Shown: positions 1 through 16,515 of the stretch, piece by piece
Numbering within the stretch: position 1 is the first letter of the stretch
How the letters are laid out: every line of letters starts with the position of its first letter
Assembly: GCA_902559985.1 (NCBI GenBank)
Contig: CACEJY010000006.1
Location: 1 to 59,691, forward strand
Direction: 5' to 3'
Source of the DNA: an uncultured SAR116 cluster alpha proteobacterium
GTDB taxonomy: Bacteria; Pseudomonadota; Alphaproteobacteria; Puniceispirillales; Puniceispirillaceae
DNA length: 59,691 nucleotides
Notes under the pieces: model-generated
The model's input: only the letters and a program-made list of their open reading frames with translations
The model's database searches: none
What the model was told of the DNA's origin: nothing
Position numbers and translations under genes: made by a program

Positions 1-1059
1 ACGTTCGACATCATACTCTTCAGCAAAGCCAAAGCCACCATAAGTCTGGACACACATTTCAGCCGCAGCCCAAGATGCATCAGCGCAAAGTAGCTTGGCG
101 AGATTGGCTTCTTCTCCTGGATTTTCATCAGCCTCATACAATCGAATTGATTCTTGTAGCATTAATTCTGCCGCTCGCATTTGACTATAAGCACGGGCAA
201 TCGGGAATTGTATTCCTTGGTTTTGACCAATAGGTCGGCCGAATACATTACGTTCGGATGAATAGCTAGACGCGTGCTCGATAAACCATTTCGCATCACC
301 AATACATTCCGCGGCAATCAAAATACGTTCAGCATTCATACCCGATAAAATATAACGGAACCCCTTGCCCTCCACACCAATAAGGCTGCTAGCCGGAATG
401 CGCATATCATCGAAAAACAACTGTGTTGATGAATGATTCATCATTGTGCGAATGGGGGTAATGGTTAATGATTTATCACGTGCATCGCGCATATCGACCA
501 GAAACACCGAAAGTCCATCAGTTTTCTTGGCGCATTGATCAAGCGGTGTCGTTCGAGCCAAAAGCAGCATCAAATCCGAATGTTCTGCGCGCGATGTCCA
601 TACTTTTTGGCCGTTCACCACGTATTCATCACCATCACGCTTAGCAGTGGTACGAAGCGCGGTTGTATCTGTGCCGCTGGTTGGTTCCGTTACACCAAAA
701 GCTTGTAATCTTAGACTGCCATCGGCAATGGCTGGCAGATATTGTTTTTTTTGTGAGGCTGATCCATGCCGTAAAACTGTTCCCATCGTGTACATCTGTG
801 CATGACAAGCCGCTGCATTACCACCAGACCGATGTATTTCTTCCAAAATCGCTGAACCGGCAGAAATTGGTAGACCCAACCCCCCATATTCCTCTGGAAT
901 CAAAGCGGACAAATAGCCAGCATCAGTTAGGGCTTGAACAAAATCAGTTGGATAAGCGCGATCAGCATCGCATTCCTGCCAGTATTTGTTATCAAAATCA
1001 GCGCATAATCTTGTAACAGCATCGCGGATTTCTGCATGATCGTGTGAGTAGTGAAACAT
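1..1059 (-). CDS. Acyl-CoA dehydrogenase (C-terminus cut by window edge)
   Basis: My reading of the minus strand gives 353 open codons from the ATG at 1059 to the window edge, so roughly the last 30 residues are missing. It has the acyl-CoA dehydrogenase domain order: helical N-terminal domain, middle beta domain with the FAD-contacting stretch QAFGVTEPTSGTD, then the C-terminal helical domain with ERNVFGRPIGQNQ and the QTYGGFGF segment. The family oxidises acyl-CoA thioesters to 2-enoyl-CoA and passes electrons to ETF. It is divergent from the flavoprotein cluster starting at 1218, so shared control is plausible. The substrate cannot be read from the sequence; a link to the neighbouring CoA-transferase is inference. 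Confidence 0.93.
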   Translation of the reverse strand, partial: MFHYSHDHAEIRDAVTRLCADFDNKYWQECDADRAYPTDFVQALTDAGYLSALIPEEYGGLGLPISAGSAILEEIHRSGGNAAACHAQMYTMGTVLRHGSASQKKQYLPAIADGSLRLQAFGVTEPTSGTDTTALRTTAKRDGDEYVVNGQKVWTSRAEHSDLMLLLARTTPLDQCAKKTDGLSVFLVDMRDARDKSLTITPIRTMMNHSSTQLFFDDMRIPASSLIGVEGKGFRYILSGMNAERILIAAECIGDAKWFIEHASSYSSERNVFGRPIGQNQGIQFPIARAYSQMRAAELMLQESIRLYEADENPGEEANLAKLLCADASWAAAEMCVQTYGGFGFAEEYDVER

Positions 1060-1217: not shown

Positions 1218-2948
1218 ATGAAACTCATAAAAACAGATGTTCTAATTGTCGGCGCTGGTGCCGCAGGTATGTACGCCAGCATATCCGCTGCCAAATCGAA
1301 CAAGAAGGTTATGCTGTGTGATAAAAGCCTAATTAGTAGAGGCGGCGCAACGGTTATGGCACAAATGACTGTGGCTGCAGCGCTTGGCCATCAAGAAGCC
1401 GATCATTGGACACACCATCTCCAAGACACAATTAAATCTGGCCAAGACCTCTGTAATGAAAAGCTGAGTTACCTTCTTTGCAAAAATGCTCCAGAGAAAA
1501 TACGACAAATGCGTGATTGGAAAACCAATTGGGCGAATGACAACGCGCGAATACGACAGGTGCTTGCGCCCGGCCATGGAGTAAAACGTTGCTGTTATGT
1601 CGATTTTCTTAACACTGGTCCAGCTGTCGCCCGAACTCTTCGGGGGGAAATAGCAAAACTAAAAAACGTAACCCGTGTCAGTGGACTAACAATTATTGAT
1701 CTTGTAGTTGAGAAAAACCGGGTTATCGGTGCGATCGGCCTAAACACTGAGGCTGGCGAATATGTATCCATCGGCGCTAACGCAATTGTTTTAGCTGCCG
1801 GCGGCTTAACACAACTTTTTGCACGTAACTCGGCATCAAAAAACATGGGCGGGGACTCTCACGCGCTTGCACTAAGAGCAGGCGCTAATTTAATGGACAT
1901 GGAGTTTGTACAGTTTTTCCCCATTGGCCATCTTGCGCCTCGCCTTGTGGGAATGGACCCCATAATGTGGGACCCATTCCGTTATAAGCTAGGCGGCCGC
2001 CTCCTCAACGGTCACGAAGAGCAGTTTATTGAAAATTATGGTGGCGAAGATGGAGATGCTTATACAGTGGGCCGTGACCTTGCAGCATACGCCATATTAA
2101 AAGAATGCGAGGCTGGGAGAGGCTCGCCTAATGGAGGAGCTTGGTTAAGCTTTCAACATTTGAGTAAAGCGGAACTTGATGAGGCTTTTGGGCCTATTAT
2201 AAAGAAACTCTCAGCGAATGACATAGATCTAACAAAACAAGCGATCGAAGTAGCGCCAATTGCCCATTATCACATGGGTGGAATTGAAGTGAATGATTCA
2301 ATGGAAACATGTGTAAAAGGACTTTTTGCAGCTGGTGAATGTGTTGGTGGCGCCAATGGTGCTAACCGGCTGTCTGGCAATGCAATTCCAGAAGCATTTG
2401 TTTTCGGAGAAATTGCTGGCGCTAGCGCCGCAAACACGATTAGTGAGACTCCTCACCTTTCACCTCAACTTCATCAAAATGTACTCTCGAATTTGCTAAT
2501 TGAATTATCGCGCCAACCGAAGCAAAAGTCACAATTTCAGACGGTGACGTCACGAAAGTTACTTTTTGAGCTGCAAAAACTAATGTGGGAAAATGTTGGA
2601 GTGCTTAGAAGCAAACAGGGACTGAAAATGGCTATTAATGAAATAAGGAGAATGAAGAACGATATTTTCCCAAACTTAAAACCAGCCTCTGGAACCGTTT
2701 TCAACACCAGCTTGATGGATTGGCTTGATCTAAGGAATAGTCTTTTGTGCGCTGAGGCCATCTGCCTCGCAGCTAACGAGCGCAAAGAAAGTAGAGGCGC
2801 GCATCAGATGGAAGACATACCTTTTAAATCCAACAAATTTACAAAGAATCAAATAATATCAATGATTGATGGAAAACTTGTGTCGCGCTGGCAAGATGTA
2901 CAAAAATTGGAATTTGATCTTGAAAGAAAGCGTTGGGCAAAGGTATGA
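1218..2948 (+). CDS. SdhA/FrdA-like FAD-dependent oxidoreductase
   Basis: 576-aa flavoprotein of the succinate dehydrogenase/fumarate reductase family. The N-terminal dinucleotide motif VGAGAAG is at residues 11-17, the HYHMGG motif at 350-355 and NGANRLSGN around R384; H350 and R384 match conserved catalytic-region residues of SdhA/FrdA. Two differences stand out. The residue aligned with the covalent-FAD histidine is A44, so FAD is probably bound non-covalently. The HPTG substrate motif reads FPIG at 234-237. The stop overlaps the start of the 2Fe-2S gene by 4 bp, which suggests a two-subunit enzyme. No membrane-anchor subunits are nearby. A soluble dehydrogenase or reductase of an organic acid is the best inference; the substrate is unknown. 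Confidence 0.85.
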   Translation: MKLIKTDVLIVGAGAAGMYASISAAKSNKKVMLCDKSLISRGGATVMAQMTVAAALGHQEADHWTHHLQDTIKSGQDLCNEKLSYLLCKNAPEKIRQMRDWKTNWANDNARIRQVLAPGHGVKRCCYVDFLNTGPAVARTLRGEIAKLKNVTRVSGLTIIDLVVEKNRVIGAIGLNTEAGEYVSIGANAIVLAAGGLTQLFARNSASKNMGGDSHALALRAGANLMDMEFVQFFPIGHLAPRLVGMDPIMWDPFRYKLGGRLLNGHEEQFIENYGGEDGDAYTVGRDLAAYAILKECEAGRGSPNGGAWLSFQHLSKAELDEAFGPIIKKLSANDIDLTKQAIEVAPIAHYHMGGIEVNDSMETCVKGLFAAGECVGGANGANRLSGNAIPEAFVFGEIAGASAANTISETPHLSPQLHQNVLSNLLIELSRQPKQKSQFQTVTSRKLLFELQKLMWENVGVLRSKQGLKMAINEIRRMKNDIFPNLKPASGTVFNTSLMDWLDLRNSLLCAEAICLAANERKESRGAHQMEDIPFKSNKFTKNQIISMIDGKLVSRWQDVQKLEFDLERKRWAKV

Positions 2949-3298
2949 AAAATAACAAACAACAAAATGTTTTCGCGGAACTCAATATTTTTAGGGGTAC
3001 TAATAGCACAAAACCCGAATTTCAAACATTTAAAGTACCCTTTCAGCAAGGTGCCTCAATCCTTGATGCATTGATTTGGATAAATGACAACGTTGATGAA
3101 AGTCTATCATTCAGATATTCCTGTATTAACGCCAATGCCTGTAAAGAATGCATGATGATTGTTGACGGGCAAGTAGAATATGCCTGTTTAAAAAAACTTC
3201 AAAAATCTGGTTCTAAACTTGAGCCATTACCAAACAAAACACTCATAAAAGATTTAGTCACAGATATTGTTCCGCCCAAGGAAAAACTACTTAGCTAA
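2945..3298 (+). CDS. Stand-alone 2Fe-2S subunit (SdhB N-domain-like)
   Basis: 117-aa protein matching only the ferredoxin-like N-terminal half of SdhB/FrdB. The start chosen is ATG 2945, which overlaps the upstream stop (ATGA); a TTG 12 nt earlier is less likely. Cysteines run C-x5-C-x2-C-x11-C around the segment SCINANACKEC; the usual SdhB loop is C-x4-C-x2-C. The second domain of SdhB, which carries the 4Fe-4S and 3Fe-4S clusters, is absent. The overlap with the flavoprotein gene makes it the probable electron acceptor subunit of that enzyme. The final acceptor is not identifiable. Confidence 0.78.
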   Translation: MKNNKQQNVFAELNIFRGTNSTKPEFQTFKVPFQQGASILDALIWINDNVDESLSFRYSCINANACKECMMIVDGQVEYACLKKLQKSGSKLEPLPNKTLIKDLVTDIVPPKEKLLS

Positions 3299-3456
3299 TC
3301 AATTAAAGGGGTTTTTGGAATTTAGTCCTGAGGAATATATCTGTGTTTGTTTTGGTCGCAATCATTGTTGGAGGAATTATTGTCGAGGGTTGATTTTCCC
3401 CCAAGGTGGGATGAACATCTTTTTTAATTTTAGTTTTTCTATTGGGTTTACTCTGG

Positions 3457-4695
3457 ATGAACAATTCAACAAAAAAATCAAATTGGAAATATAGCAATTT
3501 CAAAACAAAAAATGTTGGGCCATTAAAGGGCATCAGGGTTCTAGATTTATCACGTGTTGTTGCAGGAAACATGACGTCATTGCAACTGGCTGATTTTGGT
3601 GCAGAAGTTATAAAAGTAGAGCCGCTTCCTGATGGCGACCCACTCCGAACCTGGAAACAGGGCGGGGAGTCTACTTTCTGGAAGGTATATTCGCGAAATA
3701 AAAAAAGTATTGGATTAGACTTCAGGTCGCCAGATTTTAAGGAAATCATCAGCCATCTCATTATGAGTTCAGATGTAATGATCGAAAACTTTCGGCCGGG
3801 AACACTCGAAAAAATGGGGTTTGGCTTTGACACACTGAAGCAAATTAATCCAAAACTCATTCTTCTCAGAATTTCCGGTTTTGGCCAAACAGGAACATAC
3901 AAGTCAAGGCCAGGTTTTGGCACTCTGGTTGAGTCCATGTCCGGTTTTGCTCATAAGAACGGTGAGTTAAACGGAGGTCCCCTGCTTCCGCCACTTGCGC
4001 TTGCAGATATGATATCCGGTCTTTACGGATCAAACGCAGTTTTAATGGCTTTAAGAGCACGAGATACGAGTGGCAAAGGACAAATCATTGACCTTGCTCT
4101 TCTTGACGCGATGGTTTCTGTTCTTGGCCCAGAAGCCCTAGATTACGAACTTGTTGGAAAGCCAAAGGAACGCCTTGGCAATCAATCAAGCACGTCTACA
4201 CCGCGCAATGTTTATGAAACAAAAGATGGTTACTTTTTGTCAATCTCAGCATCAACTCCCAAAATGGCTGCCAGACTTTTTGACACTATTGGCCATGGAA
4301 CAATGAATGAAGACCGCCGCTTTAATACCAACGAAGGGCGACTGAAGCATCGTGATATTGTTGATCAAACCGTTGCTGAATGGATTGCAAAGCGCAACAA
4401 AAATGAGGCTTTAAAGGCATTAGTAAAGGCGGATGTAACGGTAGCGCCACTTTATTCCATAGCGGACATTACATCAGATCCCCACTTCGTTGAACGCGAA
4501 ATTTATTCTGAAATCCCGGATGATGATCTTGGCAAAATACCAGTCCACAAGCCCGTTCCTAATCTCTCAGATACTCCTGCAACATTTCGCAACGCCGCAC
4601 CAAAAATTGGGCAAGACACAACCGAGATCCTTTTAGCAGCAGGGTTCAAAGAAAAGCGAATAGATCAGTTTTTTGAGAGAAAAAGTATCAAATGA
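3457..4695 (+). CDS. CaiB/BaiF family (family III) CoA-transferase
   Basis: 412 aa. It opens with LKGIRVLDLSRVVAGNMTSLQLADFGAEVIK-type family III sequence, and D184 in the segment PPLALADMISG aligns with the catalytic aspartate that forms the acyl anhydride in formyl-CoA transferase. The family moves CoA between carboxylic acids. ATG 3457 is chosen over an upstream TTG at 3442; neither has a strong Shine-Dalgarno. About 160 bp separate it from the 2Fe-2S gene, with nothing recognisable between. The stop overlaps the next start by 4 bp, so transferase and lyase are translationally coupled, which argues that the CoA ester made here is the lyase substrate. Likely donors or acceptors are succinate, malate, citramalate or itaconate-type acids, by inference. 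Confidence 0.9.
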   Translation: MNNSTKKSNWKYSNFKTKNVGPLKGIRVLDLSRVVAGNMTSLQLADFGAEVIKVEPLPDGDPLRTWKQGGESTFWKVYSRNKKSIGLDFRSPDFKEIISHLIMSSDVMIENFRPGTLEKMGFGFDTLKQINPKLILLRISGFGQTGTYKSRPGFGTLVESMSGFAHKNGELNGGPLLPPLALADMISGLYGSNAVLMALRARDTSGKGQIIDLALLDAMVSVLGPEALDYELVGKPKERLGNQSSTSTPRNVYETKDGYFLSISASTPKMAARLFDTIGHGTMNEDRRFNTNEGRLKHRDIVDQTVAEWIAKRNKNEALKALVKADVTVAPLYSIADITSDPHFVEREIYSEIPDDDLGKIPVHKPVPNLSDTPATFRNAAPKIGQDTTEILLAAGFKEKRIDQFFERKSIK

Positions 4696-5618
4696 AAAAT
4701 CAGCAACTTAAGTCTAATAAAAGCCAATTAAAAAGCGAAGCACCGCTGTGGCGTTCTCTTCTTTATATGCCTGCAAACAATGAAAAATTTCTTGCAAAAG
4801 CACAAAGCCGCGGTGCTGATGCGATTATTTTAGACTTAGAAGACAGCGTTGCGCCAGAAGATAAATTAAAAGCTCGGGAAATTTGCAAAAGCGCAATCCA
4901 AAAGTTAGTGGGCGGACCGTCAGACATACTCGTTAGAATTAATGCACCATTAGGGCTCTTAGTTAGAGATATTGAAGCTGTCATTCAACACGGGTTAAGA
5001 GGGTTACTCATACCCAAAGTCGAGAGCGCTGGTATTCTAATAGCAATGGATGAATTACTTACCTCCCTTGAGCAAAAACGCGGAATGAACATTGGACAAA
5101 TAATGACAATCCCAATGCTCGAAACGCCGAAAGCGCTGCTCTCGGCAGAAAAAATAGCGGGATCAATTAATCGCAACATAGGTCTTATCCTCGGTGGTGA
5201 GGATTTTGCAACATCCGCCGGGCTTTACCCAAGCGCAGAAACTTTGTCTTATCCTAAAATTCAAATGGCACTTGCTGCGAAAGCTGCGGGGTTAATGCCC
5301 CTAGGTATTTTAGATACGGTTGCAGACTTTTCGGATGCAGATTACATGTTTGAAGTCGCAAAAAAATCCGCAAAGTTTGGTTTTGAAGGGGCTACCTGCA
5401 TTCACCCAACCATGATTGACGCCCTAAACCGCGGCTTTAGTCCCACATGCGAGGAGGTCAATGAAGCTGAACTAATAATAGAAGTTATGGAAGACGCTTG
5501 GCAAAACAATCATGGCGCAGCACAAATTAACGGAAAAATGATTGATATGCCTGTTTATAAGCGCGCCCAAGCTGTTTTAAGACGCGCAGAACTTATAAAG
5601 GAAAAACAAAGTCATTAA
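4692..5618 (+). CDS. CitE-like HpcH/HpaI family lyase (malyl-/citramalyl-CoA lyase type)
   Basis: 308-aa TIM-barrel protein of the citrate lyase beta/malyl-CoA lyase group. Visible motifs are LYMPANNEKFL near the start, ILDLEDSVAPEDK (phosphate/CoA and metal region), a conserved arginine in LVRINAP, and LGGEDFA with metal-binding Glu and Asp. The family cleaves 3-hydroxyacyl-CoA such as citramalyl-CoA or malyl-CoA to acetyl-CoA plus an oxo acid, or hydrolyses malyl-CoA. It is the last gene of the cluster and overlaps the CoA-transferase by 4 bp. No enoyl-CoA hydratase sits in the cluster, so if the route goes through an unsaturated CoA ester the hydratase must be elsewhere. Confidence 0.88.
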   Translation: MKNQQLKSNKSQLKSEAPLWRSLLYMPANNEKFLAKAQSRGADAIILDLEDSVAPEDKLKAREICKSAIQKLVGGPSDILVRINAPLGLLVRDIEAVIQHGLRGLLIPKVESAGILIAMDELLTSLEQKRGMNIGQIMTIPMLETPKALLSAEKIAGSINRNIGLILGGEDFATSAGLYPSAETLSYPKIQMALAAKAAGLMPLGILDTVADFSDADYMFEVAKKSAKFGFEGATCIHPTMIDALNRGFSPTCEEVNEAELIIEVMEDAWQNNHGAAQINGKMIDMPVYKRAQAVLRRAELIKEKQSH

Positions 5619-5795: not shown

Positions 5796-5870
5796 TGGTG
5801 GGAGTGACTGGGATTGAACCAGTGACCCCTTCGATGTCAACGAAGTGCTCTCCCGCTGAGCTACACCCCC
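5796..5870 (-). tRNA. tRNA-Val (GAC anticodon)
   Basis: The reverse complement folds as a complete cloverleaf. The acceptor stem GGGGGTG pairs with CACTCCC (one G-T), the D-arm contains TAGCTCAGCGGGAGAGC, and the anticodon stem CTTCG/CGAAG encloses the loop TTGACAT with anticodon GAC. The T-arm holds GGTTCAATCC, the discriminator is A, and CCA is encoded. The length is 75 nt including CCA. It is a lone tRNA between two plus-strand genes and is transcribed opposite to both. Confidence 0.97.
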
Positions 5871-5918
5871 ATACCATTTGAACACCCGCCAGCGGACACA
5901 CACTACCCTAAATTATTA

Positions 5919-5938
5919 AAAGGCAGGCTGTTGCCTTT
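5919..5938. terminator. Bidirectional terminator-like hairpin
   Basis: AAAGGCA and TGCCTTT make a perfect 7-bp stem with a 6-nt loop and A/T-rich flanks on both sides. It may stop transcription from the CitE operon after it crosses the antisense of the tRNA. The rest of the 5619-6100 gap holds only weak short dyads, one being TGCAG/CTGCA at 5948-5964. Confidence 0.45.
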
Positions 5939-6100
5939 ATTGAGGCTTGCAGGTTATAACTGCACCATGCTCTTTGTCATATCAAGCCTTTTTTCAACCA
6001 AATCTTTGCATTAGCAAAAAAAATTAATTACACGCATTCATTCAACGCAAGAGCTAACTTCCTTATTGTCCCGGCCCCTTTGACAAGTTAGAGTTGCTGC

Positions 6101-7162
6101 ATGAGTACTTTTGAAGCCCCAGACCCTCATTCAGTATGCTCGGCAAAACTCGCGCCATCATTAACCGACAGTGCAGCCGAGACGACGCCTGCAGAATTTT
6201 TACCAGATTCTGTTGGCGCGCATTCTGGTGAGCTCACAAGTCTATCGAAATCTACTGACACACACCCAAATTCTGCAAATTTTGGACCCATTATTTTGCC
6301 ACTGGTGTCACTTCAGCAATCCACCTTCAGCGCCGTTGAGACATTATATCCACCATATCACGCAGAGCCAAGTTCAGTGGTACTCTCCTGCCCTCATGCC
6401 GGGCGTATTTATCCCGCCGAATTCATCGCAGCTAGTATTGCCGGTATAACAGATCTACGTGGGTTAGAAGACTTTGGGGTTGATCAACTTATCAGCGGTG
6501 CCTTGAACCATGGTATTCGGTGCGTGACGAACAAAGTCACCAGAGCCTATATTGACGTAAATCGGCCTGTTGATGCACTTGACCATCTCATGCTGAGCAG
6601 CCCGCCTGCTAGCAATCACGTTAAACCCTCACGCCATGTGCGTGCCGGTTATGGTTTGTTGCCGCGTTTGACCGCTGCAAGAGAGGTCATTCACCGACAA
6701 CTGTTACCCCATGACGAGGTTGAAAGCCGAATTGCATTGGTTCATCAACCCTATCATTCGGCTATTCGAGCTGCCCTGAGTGATGCCCGTAACAAATTTG
6801 GGCGTGCAATTCTGATTGATTGCCATTCCATGCCATCACATGACCAACAAAACCGTCCTCTTTCCGACATCATTCTTGGCGATCTGCATCACACTACTTT
6901 TGATCAGGAAGCTGGCAAAATGTTGACCTCTCTTATCAAAGATTCAGGCTTTAGCGTTGCCTGGAATAGCCCCTATGCTGGAGGCTATATAACAAAAAAT
7001 TACGGGTGCGCTAACAGCAACCAGCAATCAATCCAAATCGAGATTAACAGAAGCCTTTATATGAGCGGCAAGTATGAGCTGAATGACCAGGGAGTTAAAC
7101 GTGTCTCAAGCCTAATTACAAAGCTTTGTGTCGCTCTTTCTGATATGCCGGCCCCACTCTAG
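6101..7162 (+). CDS. N-formylglutamate amidohydrolase family protein
   Basis: 353 aa. From about residue 90 onward it matches the N-formylglutamate amidohydrolase fold: SCPHAGRIYP with a probable metal His, LEDFGVDQL, a VNRP segment, ILIDCHSMP with Asp-Cys-His, and the late GGYITKNYG segment. The family hydrolyses N-formyl-L-glutamate or related formyl/acyl amino acids. The N-terminal ~85 residues are rich in Ser, Thr and Pro, unlike the family, and there is no internal Met that would remove them. It stands alone and is convergent with der; the two TAG stops overlap in the palindrome CTAG at 7159-7162. No hut genes are in view, so a role in histidine breakdown is not supported by context. Confidence 0.85.
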   Translation: MSTFEAPDPHSVCSAKLAPSLTDSAAETTPAEFLPDSVGAHSGELTSLSKSTDTHPNSANFGPIILPLVSLQQSTFSAVETLYPPYHAEPSSVVLSCPHAGRIYPAEFIAASIAGITDLRGLEDFGVDQLISGALNHGIRCVTNKVTRAYIDVNRPVDALDHLMLSSPPASNHVKPSRHVRAGYGLLPRLTAAREVIHRQLLPHDEVESRIALVHQPYHSAIRAALSDARNKFGRAILIDCHSMPSHDQQNRPLSDIILGDLHHTTFDQEAGKMLTSLIKDSGFSVAWNSPYAGGYITKNYGCANSNQQSIQIEINRSLYMSGKYELNDQGVKRVSSLITKLCVALSDMPAPL

Positions 7163-11909: not shown

Positions 11910-12122
11910 ATGAATGCCAGTGATACTGCAAAAGTCCAACGCTTTTTACGCCAGCGTTTTGGCAATAACAAATTGACCCTTGCGCGCCGCGAAAATAAGG
12001 ATGACTCGGCCGAACTAATGCTTGAAGACGAGTTCATTGGAGTGGTCTTTCAAGATAATGAAGATGGCGAGACATGTTACCACGTACAAATTTCAATTTT
12101 GGAAGAAGATTTGAACGACTAA
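11910..12122 (+). CDS. DUF3126 family protein
   Basis: 70-aa protein matching DUF3126, a short alphaproteobacterial family of unknown function. It has the typical N-terminal KVQRFLRQRFGN helix followed by a beta-rich acidic C-terminus (ELMLEDEFIGVVFQDNEDGE) and ends in ILEEDLND. The length is normal for the family. It is a stand-alone gene followed by the broken exporter at 12175. Confidence 0.88.
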   Translation: MNASDTAKVQRFLRQRFGNNKLTLARRENKDDSAELMLEDEFIGVVFQDNEDGETCYHVQISILEEDLND

Positions 12123-12174
12123 CCATATAATATTGTTCTGCAATCAAGATTTTGTCTGACTTAAAATTTATTTT

Positions 12175-12537
12175 TTAATACCAGCCTCCGGCCCGCAAAA
12201 TCGTGGCAGCCAAAACGAACATGATCACAGCAACAACACCATTCAATACCCGCCAAGCTCGGGGCAGACATATTATATCTGAGAGTAAATAAACGCTATT
12301 ACCAAGCGCCGGAAAGAATACAAAACTGGCCGTTACAGCTCCGGCTCCAAATGCTAGTTTATTTGCACCACTAAATTGCAACGAAATTGTGCCAATTAAC
12401 ACCACTGTATCAAGGTAAACATGCGGATTAATGAATGTCATTGCTGCAGCAGCCCCAAGGCTTGTCCAAAGACCACCAAATTGATCTTGTAGTTTTAAAC
12501 AAAAACTTTTTAAAACATCTCTTGTTAACCACCTAAT
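12175..12537 (-). pseudogene. Truncated ArgO/LysE-type amino-acid exporter
   Basis: The minus frame open from 12537 to the stop at 12175 matches only the C-terminal half of ArgO/LysE exporters: GAAAAMTFINPHVYLDTVVLIG, which corresponds to the conserved TWLNPHVYLDT segment, then AFGAGAVTASFVFF and PRAWRVLNG. The full family is about 200 residues; the first ~90-100, with the N-terminal membrane helices, are missing. Homology fades near 12500, and the next gene ends inside this remnant at 12525. No matching N-terminal half is found elsewhere in the window. This is best read as a gene cut by acquisition of the AT-rich block to its right. An in-frame ATG at 12441 exists, but a functional 88-aa exporter is unlikely. 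Confidence 0.82.
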
Positions 12538-13445
12538 TTAAGTTTTAGTTCATTCACTTCCCTCAAAATTCCTTGTTTGAATTTCATCGGCTCATATCCA
12601 AAATCACGCGTTGCATTTTCATATGAAAAAACTTTATCTTCTTTCATCCTTAATACTTGTTCAACAGTAATAGGAAAACGAGATCCCATTATCATCTTAC
12701 CTACATATGCTCCCATAATGCTTAACCAAATAGGCAAGTGAATAAAAAATACCCTTTTATCTAGTCCAGTAGCAATCTCACGTAATATTGATATATATGA
12801 AATTTGGTCTCTACCTGACAAATTATACTGTTTGCCATAGCAAGAGCTCTTGTTTTTGAGCACTTTCAAATAGGCAGATCCCAGATCCTCAGCGTTTACA
12901 GGTTGCATCAAATTTTTTCCACTGCCAAAAACAGGGAAAAAGCTGTAGGCATTAATAAACTTTATTAGCCTCCAAAAATTTTGGTCTCTACTGCTGCCAT
13001 AAATTAAAGTTGGCCGCAATATTGTTATGTTAGAATGCTCATTAATCAGTTTGTCTTCAATCTCTATATATTCAGCACTAGCACTCTTAAATTTAGAATA
13101 CCGTCCTGTAGTATGCACACATATACACCAGTCAATTCCCATTTCTGCACTAGATTTTACGATGTTTGTAGAAAACTGAATATTTGCAATATGCAATATT
13201 GTTTTACTACCTTTCATTGTTTTTTTTAACTGATCAATATCGTTAAGATCAGCCTCAATGAATTTAAGTTTTAGATTGTAACGCGTTAAATGCTCTACTT
13301 TACTCCCTTTTCTAACAAGGCACTTAATTTCTTTGTTGTATTTTTCTTCACTTAGCTTCTCAAAAAAATACCGTGCTGAGTGTCCGCTGGCTCCAGTTAT
13401 CAACAATCCATCATCTTTATACTTCAAAACATTTACCAACCTCAC
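12525..13445 (-). CDS. NAD-dependent epimerase/dehydratase-like protein
   Basis: 306 aa, extended SDR/NmrA-like Rossmann protein. The motif TGASGHSA replaces the usual TGxxGxxG near residue 18; later come an ILRPTLIYG segment and a C-terminal domain. The usual YxxxK catalytic pair is not obvious: the corresponding region reads HTTGRYSKFKSASAEYIEIED. Such proteins act on nucleotide sugars or related metabolites, but no substrate can be assigned. The apparent start is GTG 13445 with AGGGG directly upstream, so the exact start is uncertain. It is AT-rich unlike its neighbours and overlaps the remnant of the argO-like gene, both signs of transfer. Confidence 0.75.
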   Translation of the reverse strand: MRLVNVLKYKDDGLLITGASGHSARYFFEKLSEEKYNKEIKCLVRKGSKVEHLTRYNLKLKFIEADLNDIDQLKKTMKGSKTILHIANIQFSTNIVKSSAEMGIDWCICVHTTGRYSKFKSASAEYIEIEDKLINEHSNITILRPTLIYGSSRDQNFWRLIKFINAYSFFPVFGSGKNLMQPVNAEDLGSAYLKVLKNKSSCYGKQYNLSGRDQISYISILREIATGLDKRVFFIHLPIWLSIMGAYVGKMIMGSRFPITVEQVLRMKEDKVFSYENATRDFGYEPMKFKQGILREVNELKLKLGG

Positions 13446-13503
13446 CCCCTAAGTAGTGCCAATGGCCTAAGTTACCGTATTTTTGTTTTTTAATCTTATA
13501 CCC

Positions 13504-13516
13504 TATTCCCACTCAA
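13504..13516. repeat. Direct repeat of the guaA 3' end (att-like), distal copy
   Basis: These 13 bp match the guaA 3' terminus at 14969-14981 in 12 positions. On the minus strand this copy reads through GTTGAGTGGGAATAG, i.e. codons for VEWE and a stop, echoing the IEWE end of GuaA. The guaA 3' end is a known attachment site for genomic islands in several bacteria. The copy lies in a 202-bp AT-rich gap with no gene. Confidence 0.5.
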
Positions 13517-13647
13517 CAGCACGACCTTCCTAGAAGTTTGATTATATTAAGTTTTATATTTATTTTGTAAGTGTTTTATTAAGCCTTTTCTCATTCTATT
13601 ATATTTTCACATTTTCAAATCAGCAACCCACAAGACTTTAATCAGCA

Positions 13648-14283
13648 TTACTCTTTAGAAATCTTAACTAGGTACTTTACACCTTTAAAATAGAAAAAAG
13701 ATGGCCAAGCATCATTATTACCAATGCGTAGCAAGTTAAAATTTTCTTGTAATGTTTTGGATATATCTAATTCATCATCAGCAGATTTTCGCTTGGGGTA
13801 AAAAGACTCCTTACCAACTTGTTTTTTACGAGTGACATTTGGATATAATTTTAGAAATTCAGAAATAATATTAATCGTAGCGATTGCTTGTTTTTCTCTG
13901 ATTTCTTTATAAAGTTCAGTTCCATCAAAAGTAATTATTGATTGACAAAATATATCGCCGCTATCAACATTCTCAGCGGCCTCAATGAGGCTAACTTTTA
14001 TTTCATTTTGTCCTTCCAACAGTTGCCATTGTATCGGCGCAAACCCTTTTCCTTTTGGCAAGTCGCTGGCGTGCACTACTAAAGTTAATTTGTTACGTTG
14101 CAAGAACTCATTGGGAAGAATTTTTGTGTTCCCCAATAAAAACACAATATCAAAATCAAAAACTTCGTCTGCCCTAAAAAATTTACTTATCGAATAATGC
14201 TTAAACTCAAATTTTATGTTTTTAAAAAAGTCACAAATCCAATTGTTGTCTTTATCGAACACAAGTGCTACCGAGTAGCTCAT
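13648..14283 (-). CDS. Formyltransferase family protein (sugar-formyltransferase-like)
   Basis: 211 aa from ATG 14283, with GGAG 7 nt upstream; the TTG at 14289 is unlikely. The core has the formyltransferase signature around HASDLPKGKGF with a likely catalytic His, then VDSGDI with the Asp. The C-terminus (FYPKRKSADDELD and WPSFFYFKG) resembles enzymes that N-formylate amino sugars using 10-formyl-tetrahydrofolate in surface-polysaccharide or flagellin glycosylation loci. The Asn of the N-x-H motif is replaced by Val in this copy. It is not the housekeeping Fmt, being too short and lacking its C-terminal domain. It lies in the AT-rich block between the guaA repeats, probably horizontally acquired. 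Confidence 0.8.
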   Translation of the reverse strand: MSYSVALVFDKDNNWICDFFKNIKFEFKHYSISKFFRADEVFDFDIVFLLGNTKILPNEFLQRNKLTLVVHASDLPKGKGFAPIQWQLLEGQNEIKVSLIEAAENVDSGDIFCQSIITFDGTELYKEIREKQAIATINIISEFLKLYPNVTRKKQVGKESFYPKRKSADDELDISKTLQENFNLLRIGNNDAWPSFFYFKGVKYLVKISKE

Positions 14284-14311
14284 TCTCAATCTCCATTTTG
14301 AGTCAACACAT

Positions 14312-14325
14312 TGTAATATATTACA
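14312..14325. promoter_or_regulatory. Perfect 14-bp palindrome upstream of the formyltransferase
   Basis: TGTAATATATTACA is a perfect palindrome ending 29 bp before the formyltransferase start codon. It may be an operator, but in such AT-rich DNA a chance palindrome is quite possible. Confidence 0.3.
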
Positions 14326-14381
14326 TTATTTAATTTATTATTCTTTATTTTCACTATGTAAGTACTTTGTAGGTTAATGGC

Positions 14382-14822
14382 TCAATCCTCAATCAACCTT
14401 TTTCCAAAACTGATTACTTCATCTTCATCGTAGCCAACTGCGTTATAAAAGTTTATCGCTTCTTTGTTATCTGCTCTGATTTGAAGGTTTATTTTTGGGC
14501 AACCTTTATCAAAAAGTATCTTTTCTCCGAATTCTAACAACTGTTTTCCATAACCACTTTTTTGGAATTGAGGAAGAACTGCGAAGTAGTTTAACCATCC
14601 TCTGTGTCCATCATAACCAAACATCGCAGTAGCAATTATTCTGTTTGAGAGTTCAGCGACAAAAAATAAATCATTCTGTGTTTTTACTTTACGCTGAATA
14701 TCTAATTTTGGGTTATTCCAACTTCTTATCAAACCGCATTCTTTCCAAATATGAATAACGTCTTCCATATCTAAATGCTGATAAGTTCTTATGTTCAATT
14801 CTGTTAGTGTTTTTTCAGTCAT
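14382..14822 (-). CDS. GNAT acetyltransferase, YpeA-like
   Basis: 146 aa from ATG 14822 (a GTG at 14843 would add seven residues). It closely follows the YpeA pattern: IWKECGLIRSWNNPKLDIQRK near the start, GYDGHRGW in the middle, the acetyl-CoA-binding QFQKSGYGKQLL, and the end SFGKRLIED. YpeA-type GNATs are presumed protein or amino-acid acetyltransferases; the substrate is unknown. It is AT-rich like the two genes downstream and is the gene nearest to the guaA end of the block. Confidence 0.88.
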   Translation of the reverse strand: MTEKTLTELNIRTYQHLDMEDVIHIWKECGLIRSWNNPKLDIQRKVKTQNDLFFVAELSNRIIATAMFGYDGHRGWLNYFAVLPQFQKSGYGKQLLEFGEKILFDKGCPKINLQIRADNKEAINFYNAVGYDEDEVISFGKRLIED

Positions 14823-14967
14823 TTCTACGTTTCGCAATTGCACCTGTAGTTTGTAGGTTTCTTTGTAACATCGAAAAAATAACCTAATTTTATCAACGAC
14901 TTAACTTTTCATAATTCAGTCACTATGAATTTTTTATACAATATTTTCAATGACTTAATTTAAGCTA

Positions 14968-16515
14968 TTACTCCCACTCAATTGTTCCCGGGGGTTTTGA
15001 TGTCACGTCGTAAACAACACGGTTAACACCATGCACCTCATTAACAATTCGAGTTGCAGTTCCAGTTAAAAACTCGTGGCTGAAAGCATAGCTTTCGGCT
15101 GTCATTCCATCACTAGAGGTTACTGCTCGTAAAGCACAAACATATTCATAAGACCGCGCATCACCCATCACACCAACGGTTTTTACTGGCAGTAAAACTG
15201 CAAATGCCTGCCAAATTTTATTATAAAGACCGGCCTTTCTAATTTCATCTAGGTACACCGCATCCGCGGCGCGCAGAATATCCAGCTTTTCAGGGGTGAT
15301 ATCACCTGGGATACGAATGGCAAGGCCTGGGCCGGGAAACGGATGTCGCCCAACAAGGCTATCAGGAAGGCCAAGCTCACGACCAAGGTCGCGGACCTCG
15401 TCCTTAAACAACTCACGGAGCGGCTCAATAAGTTCAAGGGCCATATCATCTGGCAAACCTCCGACATTATGGTGCGATTTAATTGTCACTGCGCTTCCAC
15501 CAGCAGCCGAAATGCTCTCAATTACATCTGGATACAGCGTGCCTTGGGCTAAAAACTGAGCATCATCGATATTAAGGGCTTCCTCGTCAAAAACCTCGAT
15601 AAAGCTTGACCCAATGATCTTGCGTTTTTCCTCAGGATCACTGACGCCAGCAAGGCGTCCCAGAAACAGCTCCGATGCATCCTTATGAATTAAGGGGATG
15701 TTATAATGGCCACTAAACAACGAAACCACCTCTTCCGCTTCACCTTCGCGCAACAGCCCGTGATCGACAAACACACAAGTCAATTGGTCGCCGATAGCGT
15801 GATGAATCAATACGGCCGCCACCGAGGAGTCAACGCCACCAGATAGGCCGCAAATCACTCTTGCATCGCCAACCTTTGTACGGATTAACTCAATGGCACG
15901 GCTACGATAGGCCGCCATCGACCAACTGCCAGTACACCCACAAATGCCAAGAGCAAAGCGCGCCAGAAGATCTGCTCCATTTTGTGTATGCACTACTTCG
16001 GGGTGAAATTGCACACCATAGTAATGACGACTTTCATCAGCAACCGCGGCATAAGGAGCACCAGATGAAGTTGCAATGACCGAAAACCCGTCAGGAAGCT
16101 TGGCAACATGATCCCCATGGCTCATCCAAACAGCATGTTGCCCCCCAATCTGCCAGAACCCGTCAAACAAAGTAGATTGCGCGGTGATTTCTAGCAAAGC
16201 ACGGCCAAACTCACGGCTAGTTCCAGGCTCAACTTCTCCGCCAAGTTGTGCGCACATGGTTTGCTGGCCATAACAAATGCCAAGAACCGGCACCCCCAAA
16301 TCAAACACCATCTGCGGCGCACGCGGCGTATCGGCGAGCGCCACAGAATTTGGGCCGCCAGACAGAATAATGCCATTAGGACCGGCGGCTTTAATCTTTT
16401 CTGGATCAATCGTGCAGGGTAAAATTTCGGTGTAGACACCCACCTCGCGCAGGCGGCGCGCAATCAATTGCGTCACTTGCGAACCAAAATCAATAATCAA
16501 AATAGAATCGAACAT
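14968..16515 (-). CDS. guaA: GMP synthase (glutamine-hydrolysing)
   Basis: 515 aa, full length. The N-terminal class I amidotransferase has the nucleophile Cys in [12 protein letters not shown] near residue 80 and the HPEV histidine near 170. The ATP-pyrophosphatase domain has the P-loop GLSGGVDSS around residue 225, and the C-terminal dimerisation domain ends in PPGTIEWE. It converts XMP to GMP with glutamine and ATP, in the same pathway as guaB 1.5 kb away. The 3' terminus is the target of the direct repeat described at 14969-14981, but the reading frame is intact. Confidence 0.99.
14969..14981. repeat. Direct repeat at the guaA 3' end (att-like), proximal copy
   Basis: Last codons of guaA. 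Its partner is at 13504-13516, 1,465 bp away in the same orientation, with 12 of 13 identical positions. The segment between them carries only the formyltransferase and GNAT genes. Confidence 0.5.

Follow-up and report, generated by a model that had tools for sequence, protein, structure and literature searches.

What does a flavoprotein of the succinate dehydrogenase (SDH) type do when a stand-alone 2Fe-2S protein is encoded beside it and coenzyme A (CoA) enzymes follow on the same strand? The question is raised by a locus of an uncultured member of the SAR116 cluster, an abundant marine group, on contig CACEJY010000006.1 (the whole 59,691-nt stretch that was analysed is called the window). 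Four plus-strand open reading frames (ORFs) were confirmed at positions 1218–5618: FpA, an SdhA/FrdA-fold flavoprotein with an altered active site (1218..2948, 576 aa); FeS, the stand-alone 2Fe-2S subunit (2945..3298, 117 aa from its ATG); CoAT, a family III CoA-transferase (3457..4695, 412 aa from its ATG); and CitE, a CitE-like acyl-CoA C–C lyase (4692..5618, 308 aa). The initial annotation joined all four in one pathway, with a C4–C6 dicarboxylate as the substrate of FpA. We read the locus as two modules, FpA-FeS and CoAT-CitE, that perhaps belong to a single route, and tentatively favour FpA-FeS as a free-acid desaturase that would recognise one carboxylate, pass its electrons through a soluble 2Fe-2S subunit and leave CoA activation to a later step, in SAR116 perhaps to CoAT-CitE.

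A rebuilt SdhA-like pocket and a minimal iron-sulfur partner

FpA matches FAD/NAD-binding models of Pfam (FAD_binding_2 from residue 7) together with Succ_DH_flav_C. Its AlphaFold2 model (pLDDT 80.8, pTM 0.87) is of the SDH/FrdA type, structures of which come first in Foldseek (best matches M. smegmatis Sdh1, TMq 0.86, and E. coli FrdA, TMq 0.88), with aspartate oxidase from rank 41. We aligned E. coli FrdA, SdhA and NadB with 21 family members, leaving out the incomplete L029 and L124. R286, H350 and R384 of FpA, equivalent to FrdA R287, H355 and R390, which we take to be the catalytic residues, are conserved in 21/21, consistent with SdhA/FrdA-type chemistry. The surroundings of this triad are altered, and identically so in the aligned members. 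A44 stands at the position of FrdA His44, presumably the covalent FAD histidine, and the column is Ala in 21/21 members and His in 64 of the 70 distant SdhA-like loci. M50-T51 replace two glycines, and A117 lies at the column that holds Phe in FrdA and Glu in E. coli NadB (presumably Glu121), again in every member.

The most informative changes concern FrdA His232, Thr244 and Glu245, which we take to form the second-carboxylate site, the equivalent residues presumably holding the second carboxylate in FrdA, SdhA and NadB. Each is conserved in 65 of the 70 distant loci. In all 21 members F234 replaces H232, and T244-E245 becomes W251-D252 in one alignment and D252-P253 in the other. These replacements lie within residues 228–260 (codons 1899..1997), where conservation in the family is highest, with 30 of 33 positions invariant. 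Because the second-carboxylate site is replaced in every aligned member, an ordinary C4–C6 dicarboxylate is disfavoured as the substrate of FpA, and the proposal made in the initial annotation is weakened to that extent. The pocket is invariant across lineages with differing gene neighbours, which points to one substrate class for the whole family, probably other than a plain dicarboxylate.

The partner is a reduced one. FeS corresponds to the N-terminal 2Fe-2S domain of SdhB, with Fer2_3 as its sole Pfam match (E 8e-21), and the 4Fe-4S/3Fe-4S half of a three-cluster SdhB is absent from its 117 residues, in agreement with the initial description of an SdhA-like flavoprotein with a stand-alone 2Fe-2S subunit. 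The two genes occur together in 21 of the 23 family loci examined, the exceptions being L029, which ends within FpA, and L124, where FpA is cut. FeS is 109–125 aa long in these 21 loci, and its four 2Fe-2S cysteines are present in 21/21 aligned rows. The genes overlap by 4 bp in 16 of the 21 pairs and are spaced by −19 to +17 bp in 20; L122 has +106 by its computed start. An SdhB-like match is found in 51 of the 70 distant SdhA-like loci, in ORFs of 151–504 aa (the two shortest are truncated where the stretch ends). FpA-FeS thus shares with SdhAB and FrdAB the flavoprotein fold, the Arg/His/Arg catalytic residues and the 2Fe-2S domain of SdhB, but lacks the covalent-flavin histidine, the second-carboxylate site and the other half of SdhB, and no membrane-anchor genes lie between FpA and CitE.

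A further set of SdhB, small membrane proteins and SdhA occurs in many genomes of the order (L012, 2–4187; L008, 1–4165; contig C57 of the window genome), with comparable FeS/SdhA spacing across L007–L020. A gene that looks by eye like a class I fumarase follows the set in L012 and L008, and the L012 flavoprotein has Cys at the covalent-flavin histidine position.

Distribution and genomic company of the two modules

FpA at 50% identity or more is present in 10 of the 80 retained loci: three from SAR116, three from Methylobacterium, and one each from Aureimonas, Enterovirga, a Bradyrhizobiaceae metagenome-assembled genome (MAG) and a proteobacterial MAG. Relatives at 73–93% identity come from a SAR116 cluster bacterium or Candidatus Puniceispirillum. 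At E <= 1e-120, FpA is found in 12 of 385 genomes of a class-wide sample and a match in 2 of 398 of a phylum-wide sample, the window genome counted in both and the other phylum-wide hit belonging to the same class. Close FpA copies (at least 73% identity) occur in 4 of 16 genus genomes, namely the window genome (G000, 72.7% complete), G009, G013 and G014, and the same four hold CitE (at least 63%) and close CoAT (at least 71%), which favours a link between the modules. No close copy of FpA or of CoAT-CitE was found in the other 12 genus genomes, of which seven are at least 90% complete and five under 90%.

Within each module of the window the genes share an ATGA overlap of 4 bp, FpA with FeS and CoAT with CitE, and a gap of 158 bp separates the pairs. 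A divergent acyl-CoA dehydrogenase gene precedes them (1..1059, minus strand, cut by the window start; Pfam Acyl-CoA_dh_N/M/1), whose start we place at the ATG with which the L022/L126 copy likewise begins. The ORFs bear out this layout as first described. L021 and L022, from G013 and G014, keep the five-gene arrangement at 85–96% protein identity, with the dehydrogenase still divergent at 93%. Between the window and L022, differences at codon positions 1/2/3 number 41/22/149 in FpA, 8/2/26 in FeS, 32/20/91 in CoAT and 36/19/103 in CitE, and because third-position differences dominate in all four genes, each is under purifying selection. G009 has the two pairs on different contigs, with FpA-FeS close to the beginning of C1 and CoAT-CitE inside C35. 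The four-gene set was seen in three genomes only among the loci examined (window, L021, L022), and neither CoAT nor CitE was found in the stretches examined around FpA outside SAR116. The conservation of neighbourhood that the initial annotation proposed to look for is therefore real but confined to close relatives, and its single four-gene pathway keeps in its favour the adjoining pairs of three SAR116 genomes, against the separate contigs of G009 and the different company of FpA elsewhere.

Within 5 kb of FpA, 6/23 family loci (window, L021, L022, L025, L030, L116) have a gene for a CoA ligase or a family III CoA-transferase, versus 2/68 distant loci, as activation of the acid would lead one to expect, and 8/23 (L029, L112–L115, L117, L119, L165) have one for a molybdenum hydroxylase, versus 1/68. 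The corresponding p values, 0.003 and 4e-5 for raw loci and 0.003 and 0.001 after collapse to 11 lineages of our own grouping, are indicative only, because the 68 control loci are mostly from other phyla rather than matched Alphaproteobacteria and most of the queries were taken from family loci. L116 carries on one strand a CoA ligase, a short-chain dehydrogenase/reductase, an enoyl-CoA hydratase, a luciferase-like monooxygenase (LLM) oxidoreductase, FpA and FeS, which supports the favoured reading, as does the CoA ligase adjoining each of the sister loci L034 and L053. The ligase of L030 most resembles long-chain fatty-acid types.

Among the loci with a molybdenum hydroxylase, L165 and L029 combine its genes with Liv-type transporter genes (by ORF reading), L165 also with an amidohydrolase. 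L117 holds a DUF1185 gene, molybdenum hydroxylase subunits and a branched-chain-type binding protein. Two further L117 genes, which we provisionally take to be 6-hydroxynicotinate reductase and UPF0280, have no Pfam match at E <= 1e-5, and the putative reductase gene has no NCBIfam match. A 495-aa protein near FpA and the molybdenum hydroxylase in this locus (L117:3330-4817) is 97% identical in L119 and matches nothing in either Pfam or NCBIfam (E <= 1e-5). CoxL-like molybdenum hydroxylase genes number one to eight per genome in 16/16 genus genomes (E <= 1e-60).

DUF1185 (AA_synth) and amidohydrolase genes also stand beside CoAT-CitE in G009 (L134). Close homologues, at 74–76% and 76–82% for the two genes, lie in G013 and G014 on contigs other than that of FpA, and also in G004, a genome lacking a close FpA. 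None was found in G000, which is incomplete, and most other genus genomes have more distant homologues. The association with FpA (3/4 FpA genomes versus 1/12 others, Fisher p 0.027) is weak and confounded by kinship, and we do not use it. G059 belongs to another family of the order; its FpA, truncated to 290 aa, adjoins a gene for a phage-type integrase (L124:1222-3435), and no CitE was found at E <= 1e-30.

Downstream of the locus, a minus-strand tRNA-Val(gac) gene (5796..5870, ARAGORN), with no proven part in the locus, and an N-formylglutamate amidohydrolase family gene occupy positions 5796–7162; the amidohydrolase gene is also present in L021 and L022. Further on, positions 12001–15000 have 33.9% GC between flanks of 44.6% and 50.8% and hold NAD-dependent epimerase-type, formyltransferase-like and GNAT genes, perhaps as an imported patch.

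CoAT-CitE and the competing readings

All five genes receive a family name from Pfam, the divergent dehydrogenase included, and the enzyme types first given for CoAT and CitE stand. The start of CoAT is most likely ATG 3457, the longest ORF beginning at TTG 3442. CoAT belongs to family III (CoA_transf_3, E 3.4e-115, 385.5 bits against a cut-off of 23.3). Its closest curated NCBIfam family is succinate-glutarate CoA-transferase NF052585 (277.6 bits, below the cut-off of 750), its PDB sequence matches are led by a CaiB/BaiF protein with SUGCT 9br6 second (E 1.8e-60), and its conserved Asp column, presumably the catalytic Asp, aligns with SUGCT and other structures. CitE (HpcH_HpaI, E 5.5e-33) matches malyl-CoA lyase 5ugr (E 3.5e-37) and CLYBL 5vxc (E 1.2e-35). 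It combines the HpcH/HpaI fold with the GGEDF and MIDMP motifs, a combination that we looked for as a sign of citramalyl-CoA lyase; both motifs are common to CLYBL 5vxc, and 5ugr has GVADY and LIDIA. The CitE and RipC models of NCBIfam come first for CitE, both below cut-off (the itaconate lyase RipC at 151.7 bits against 375), and the succinyl-CoA:mesaconate CoA-transferase model reaches 199.3 bits against 700. PMC12460153 names both SUGCT and CLYBL in itaconate breakdown. CoAT-CitE resembles mammalian SUGCT + CLYBL and, in enzyme type, bacterial RipC, but stays below the curated cut-offs and has an extra SdhA-like pair alongside; a predicted activity in itaconyl-/citramalyl-CoA chemistry fits. 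Given these enzyme types and the itaconate link, a C5-dicarboxyl-CoA route would fit, with a hydratase elsewhere. As first noted, the four-gene locus encodes no hydratase; one MaoC-type gene lies elsewhere in the window genome, with no specific link to CoAT-CitE.

Several explanations compete with a one-carboxylate desaturase. FpA might be a divergent form of an already known enzyme, be it L-aspartate oxidase, succinate dehydrogenase or a coenzyme M/coenzyme B (CoM/CoB)-type fumarate reductase, with which it has fold and catalytic triad in common. The 25 best of the 52 NCBIfam models matched by FpA all score below their own cut-offs, the highest being TfrA, of the CoM/CoB-dependent fumarate reductase TfrAB (389.2 bits against 718), and NadB reaches 265.7 against 452.75. 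In a tree rooted on E. coli NadB, its sole NadB sequence, the FpA members form a single clade (support 1.0) next to the flavoproteins of L034 and L053 (0.969), which come from a Syntrophorhabdus and a delta-proteobacterial MAG, respectively, and then L065, L070 and L089 (0.885); support is low (0.486) at the node where E. coli FrdA and SdhA join. The last three loci, which we take as TfrA-like from their 500–504-aa SdhB-like partners, also lack the covalent-flavin histidine but have Tyr at the His232 position, where FpA has Phe, and FeS is 117 aa. The sister sets share with FpA an altered distal site and differ in their partners: in L034 the partner, at 191 aa, includes an extra 4Fe-4S domain, and an FeS match was not found in the stretch of L053 examined. 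The window genome moreover holds two further SdhA-like genes, each on a contig with an SdhB-like ORF (259 and 251 aa). Scores, residues and tree (with its one NadB) lead us to reject L-aspartate oxidase, SDH and TfrA, and a renamed known enzyme is highly improbable; the initial expectation that the flavoprotein would group neither with L-aspartate oxidase nor firmly with a characterised family is borne out. Urocanate reductase UrdA, to our knowledge without an SdhB-like partner, differs in having an FMN-bearing N-terminal domain, and no FMN-binding domain is among the Pfam matches of FpA. As described in PMC7921117, that enzyme keeps the carboxylate contacts and changes the distal site, so that it resembles FpA in principle, with a distal site rebuilt for another group, and offers a precedent for the reading that we favour.

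Two further explanations turn on how the modules relate. FpA could oxidise 2-methylsuccinate, or a similar C4–C6 dicarboxylate, to mesaconate, which CoAT would convert to its CoA ester and a hydratase and CitE to acetyl-CoA and pyruvate. The chemistry closes with these enzyme types, the mesaconate CoA-transferase and RipC models do match, and the MaoC-type gene could be the hydratase; we nevertheless find this route doubtful, as the second-carboxylate site is replaced in 21/21, both models score far below their cut-offs and the same pocket recurs in lineages where adjoining CoAT-CitE was not found. Alternatively, the pairs could be independent neighbours, CoAT-CitE degrading itaconate, mesaconate or citramalate to acetyl-CoA and pyruvate with a distant hydratase, and FpA-FeS serving another route such as N-heteroaromatic carboxylate catabolism. 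The itaconate roles of SUGCT and CLYBL, the 158-bp gap, the separate contigs of G009 and the lack of CitE close to FpA outside SAR116 all speak for such independence, as do the molybdenum hydroxylases near FpA, the DUF1185 and binding-protein genes of L117 and the amidohydrolase of L165; the one other CitE match (E <= 1e-75) in the class sample of 385 genomes is 42% identical. Close copies of both pairs nevertheless occur in the same 4/16 genus genomes, with the arrangement kept in three, and we regard independence as possible, if somewhat unlikely.

The one-carboxylate desaturase has its own difficulties, several of which concern gene context. A CoA enzyme is absent within 5 kb in 17/23 family loci, and 9/23 have neither a CoA enzyme nor a molybdenum hydroxylase, the commoner of the two neighbours. 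L120 and L121, sisters of L116, repeat its row without a complete CoA ligase; a 40-aa match to the ligase remains in L121. CoAT at 53–55% identity occurs without FpA in 6 of the 12 other genus genomes, and because G000, G013 and G014 are close kin, the SAR116 co-occurrence amounts to at most two lineages. The substrate type of CLYBL-like lyases is 3-hydroxy-3-carboxyacyl-CoA, so that the intermediate should derive from a dicarboxylate, which is hard to reconcile with a one-carboxylate substrate of FpA. The pLDDT of the FpA model also falls below 50 at residues 39–47, around the former flavin-histidine site. All of these points weigh against the proposal.

A possible reaction and what it would mean

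With these reservations, the one-carboxylate desaturase would work as follows. FpA-FeS would be a two-subunit flavin/2Fe-2S oxidoreductase without a membrane anchor at its locus, desaturating (or, in reverse, saturating) a free carboxylic acid at its alpha,beta bond by the hydride-transfer chemistry of SdhA and FrdA. One carboxylate would be recognised, and the other end of the substrate would not be a carboxylate held succinate-style. Its distal group, plausibly bulky, aromatic or cationic, would be housed by Phe234, Trp251-Asp252-Pro253 and Met50-Thr51. Electrons would pass from a non-covalent FAD to the single 2Fe-2S cluster and on to an external acceptor, which we propose because the 4Fe-4S/3Fe-4S half of SdhB is absent. 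The acid may then be activated with CoA: CoAT would probably take this step in SAR116, and CoA ligases would take it in some other lineages. An unlinked hydratase and CitE would finally yield acetyl-CoA.

A bolder and unlikely extension is that FpA-FeS represents an enzyme class of its own, in which a soluble flavin/2Fe-2S desaturase acts on heteroaryl- or other cyclic monocarboxylates ahead of their CoA activation and would link N-heterocycle catabolism begun by molybdenum hydroxylases to CoA-thioester cleavage in SAR116 and other Alphaproteobacteria. Among the open-licence papers listed, judged by title and opening of the abstract, we found no described catabolic enzyme that combines an SdhA-like protein with a stand-alone 2Fe-2S subunit, an absence that such a search does not prove. 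Homarine- or trigonelline-type substrates were considered because the FpA pocket is possibly cation-friendly; the papers listed yielded nothing pertinent to them, and no support for isonicotinate.

Among the new findings the strongest is that the pocket is invariant and of a non-succinate type, in a family that has retained nothing of SdhB beyond its 2Fe-2S part. This makes the FpA family a ready target for substrate discovery, and it cautions that genes resembling a 'succinate dehydrogenase/fumarate reductase flavoprotein' may have another product. FpA-FeS would also show how little of SdhB suffices as a working electron outlet.

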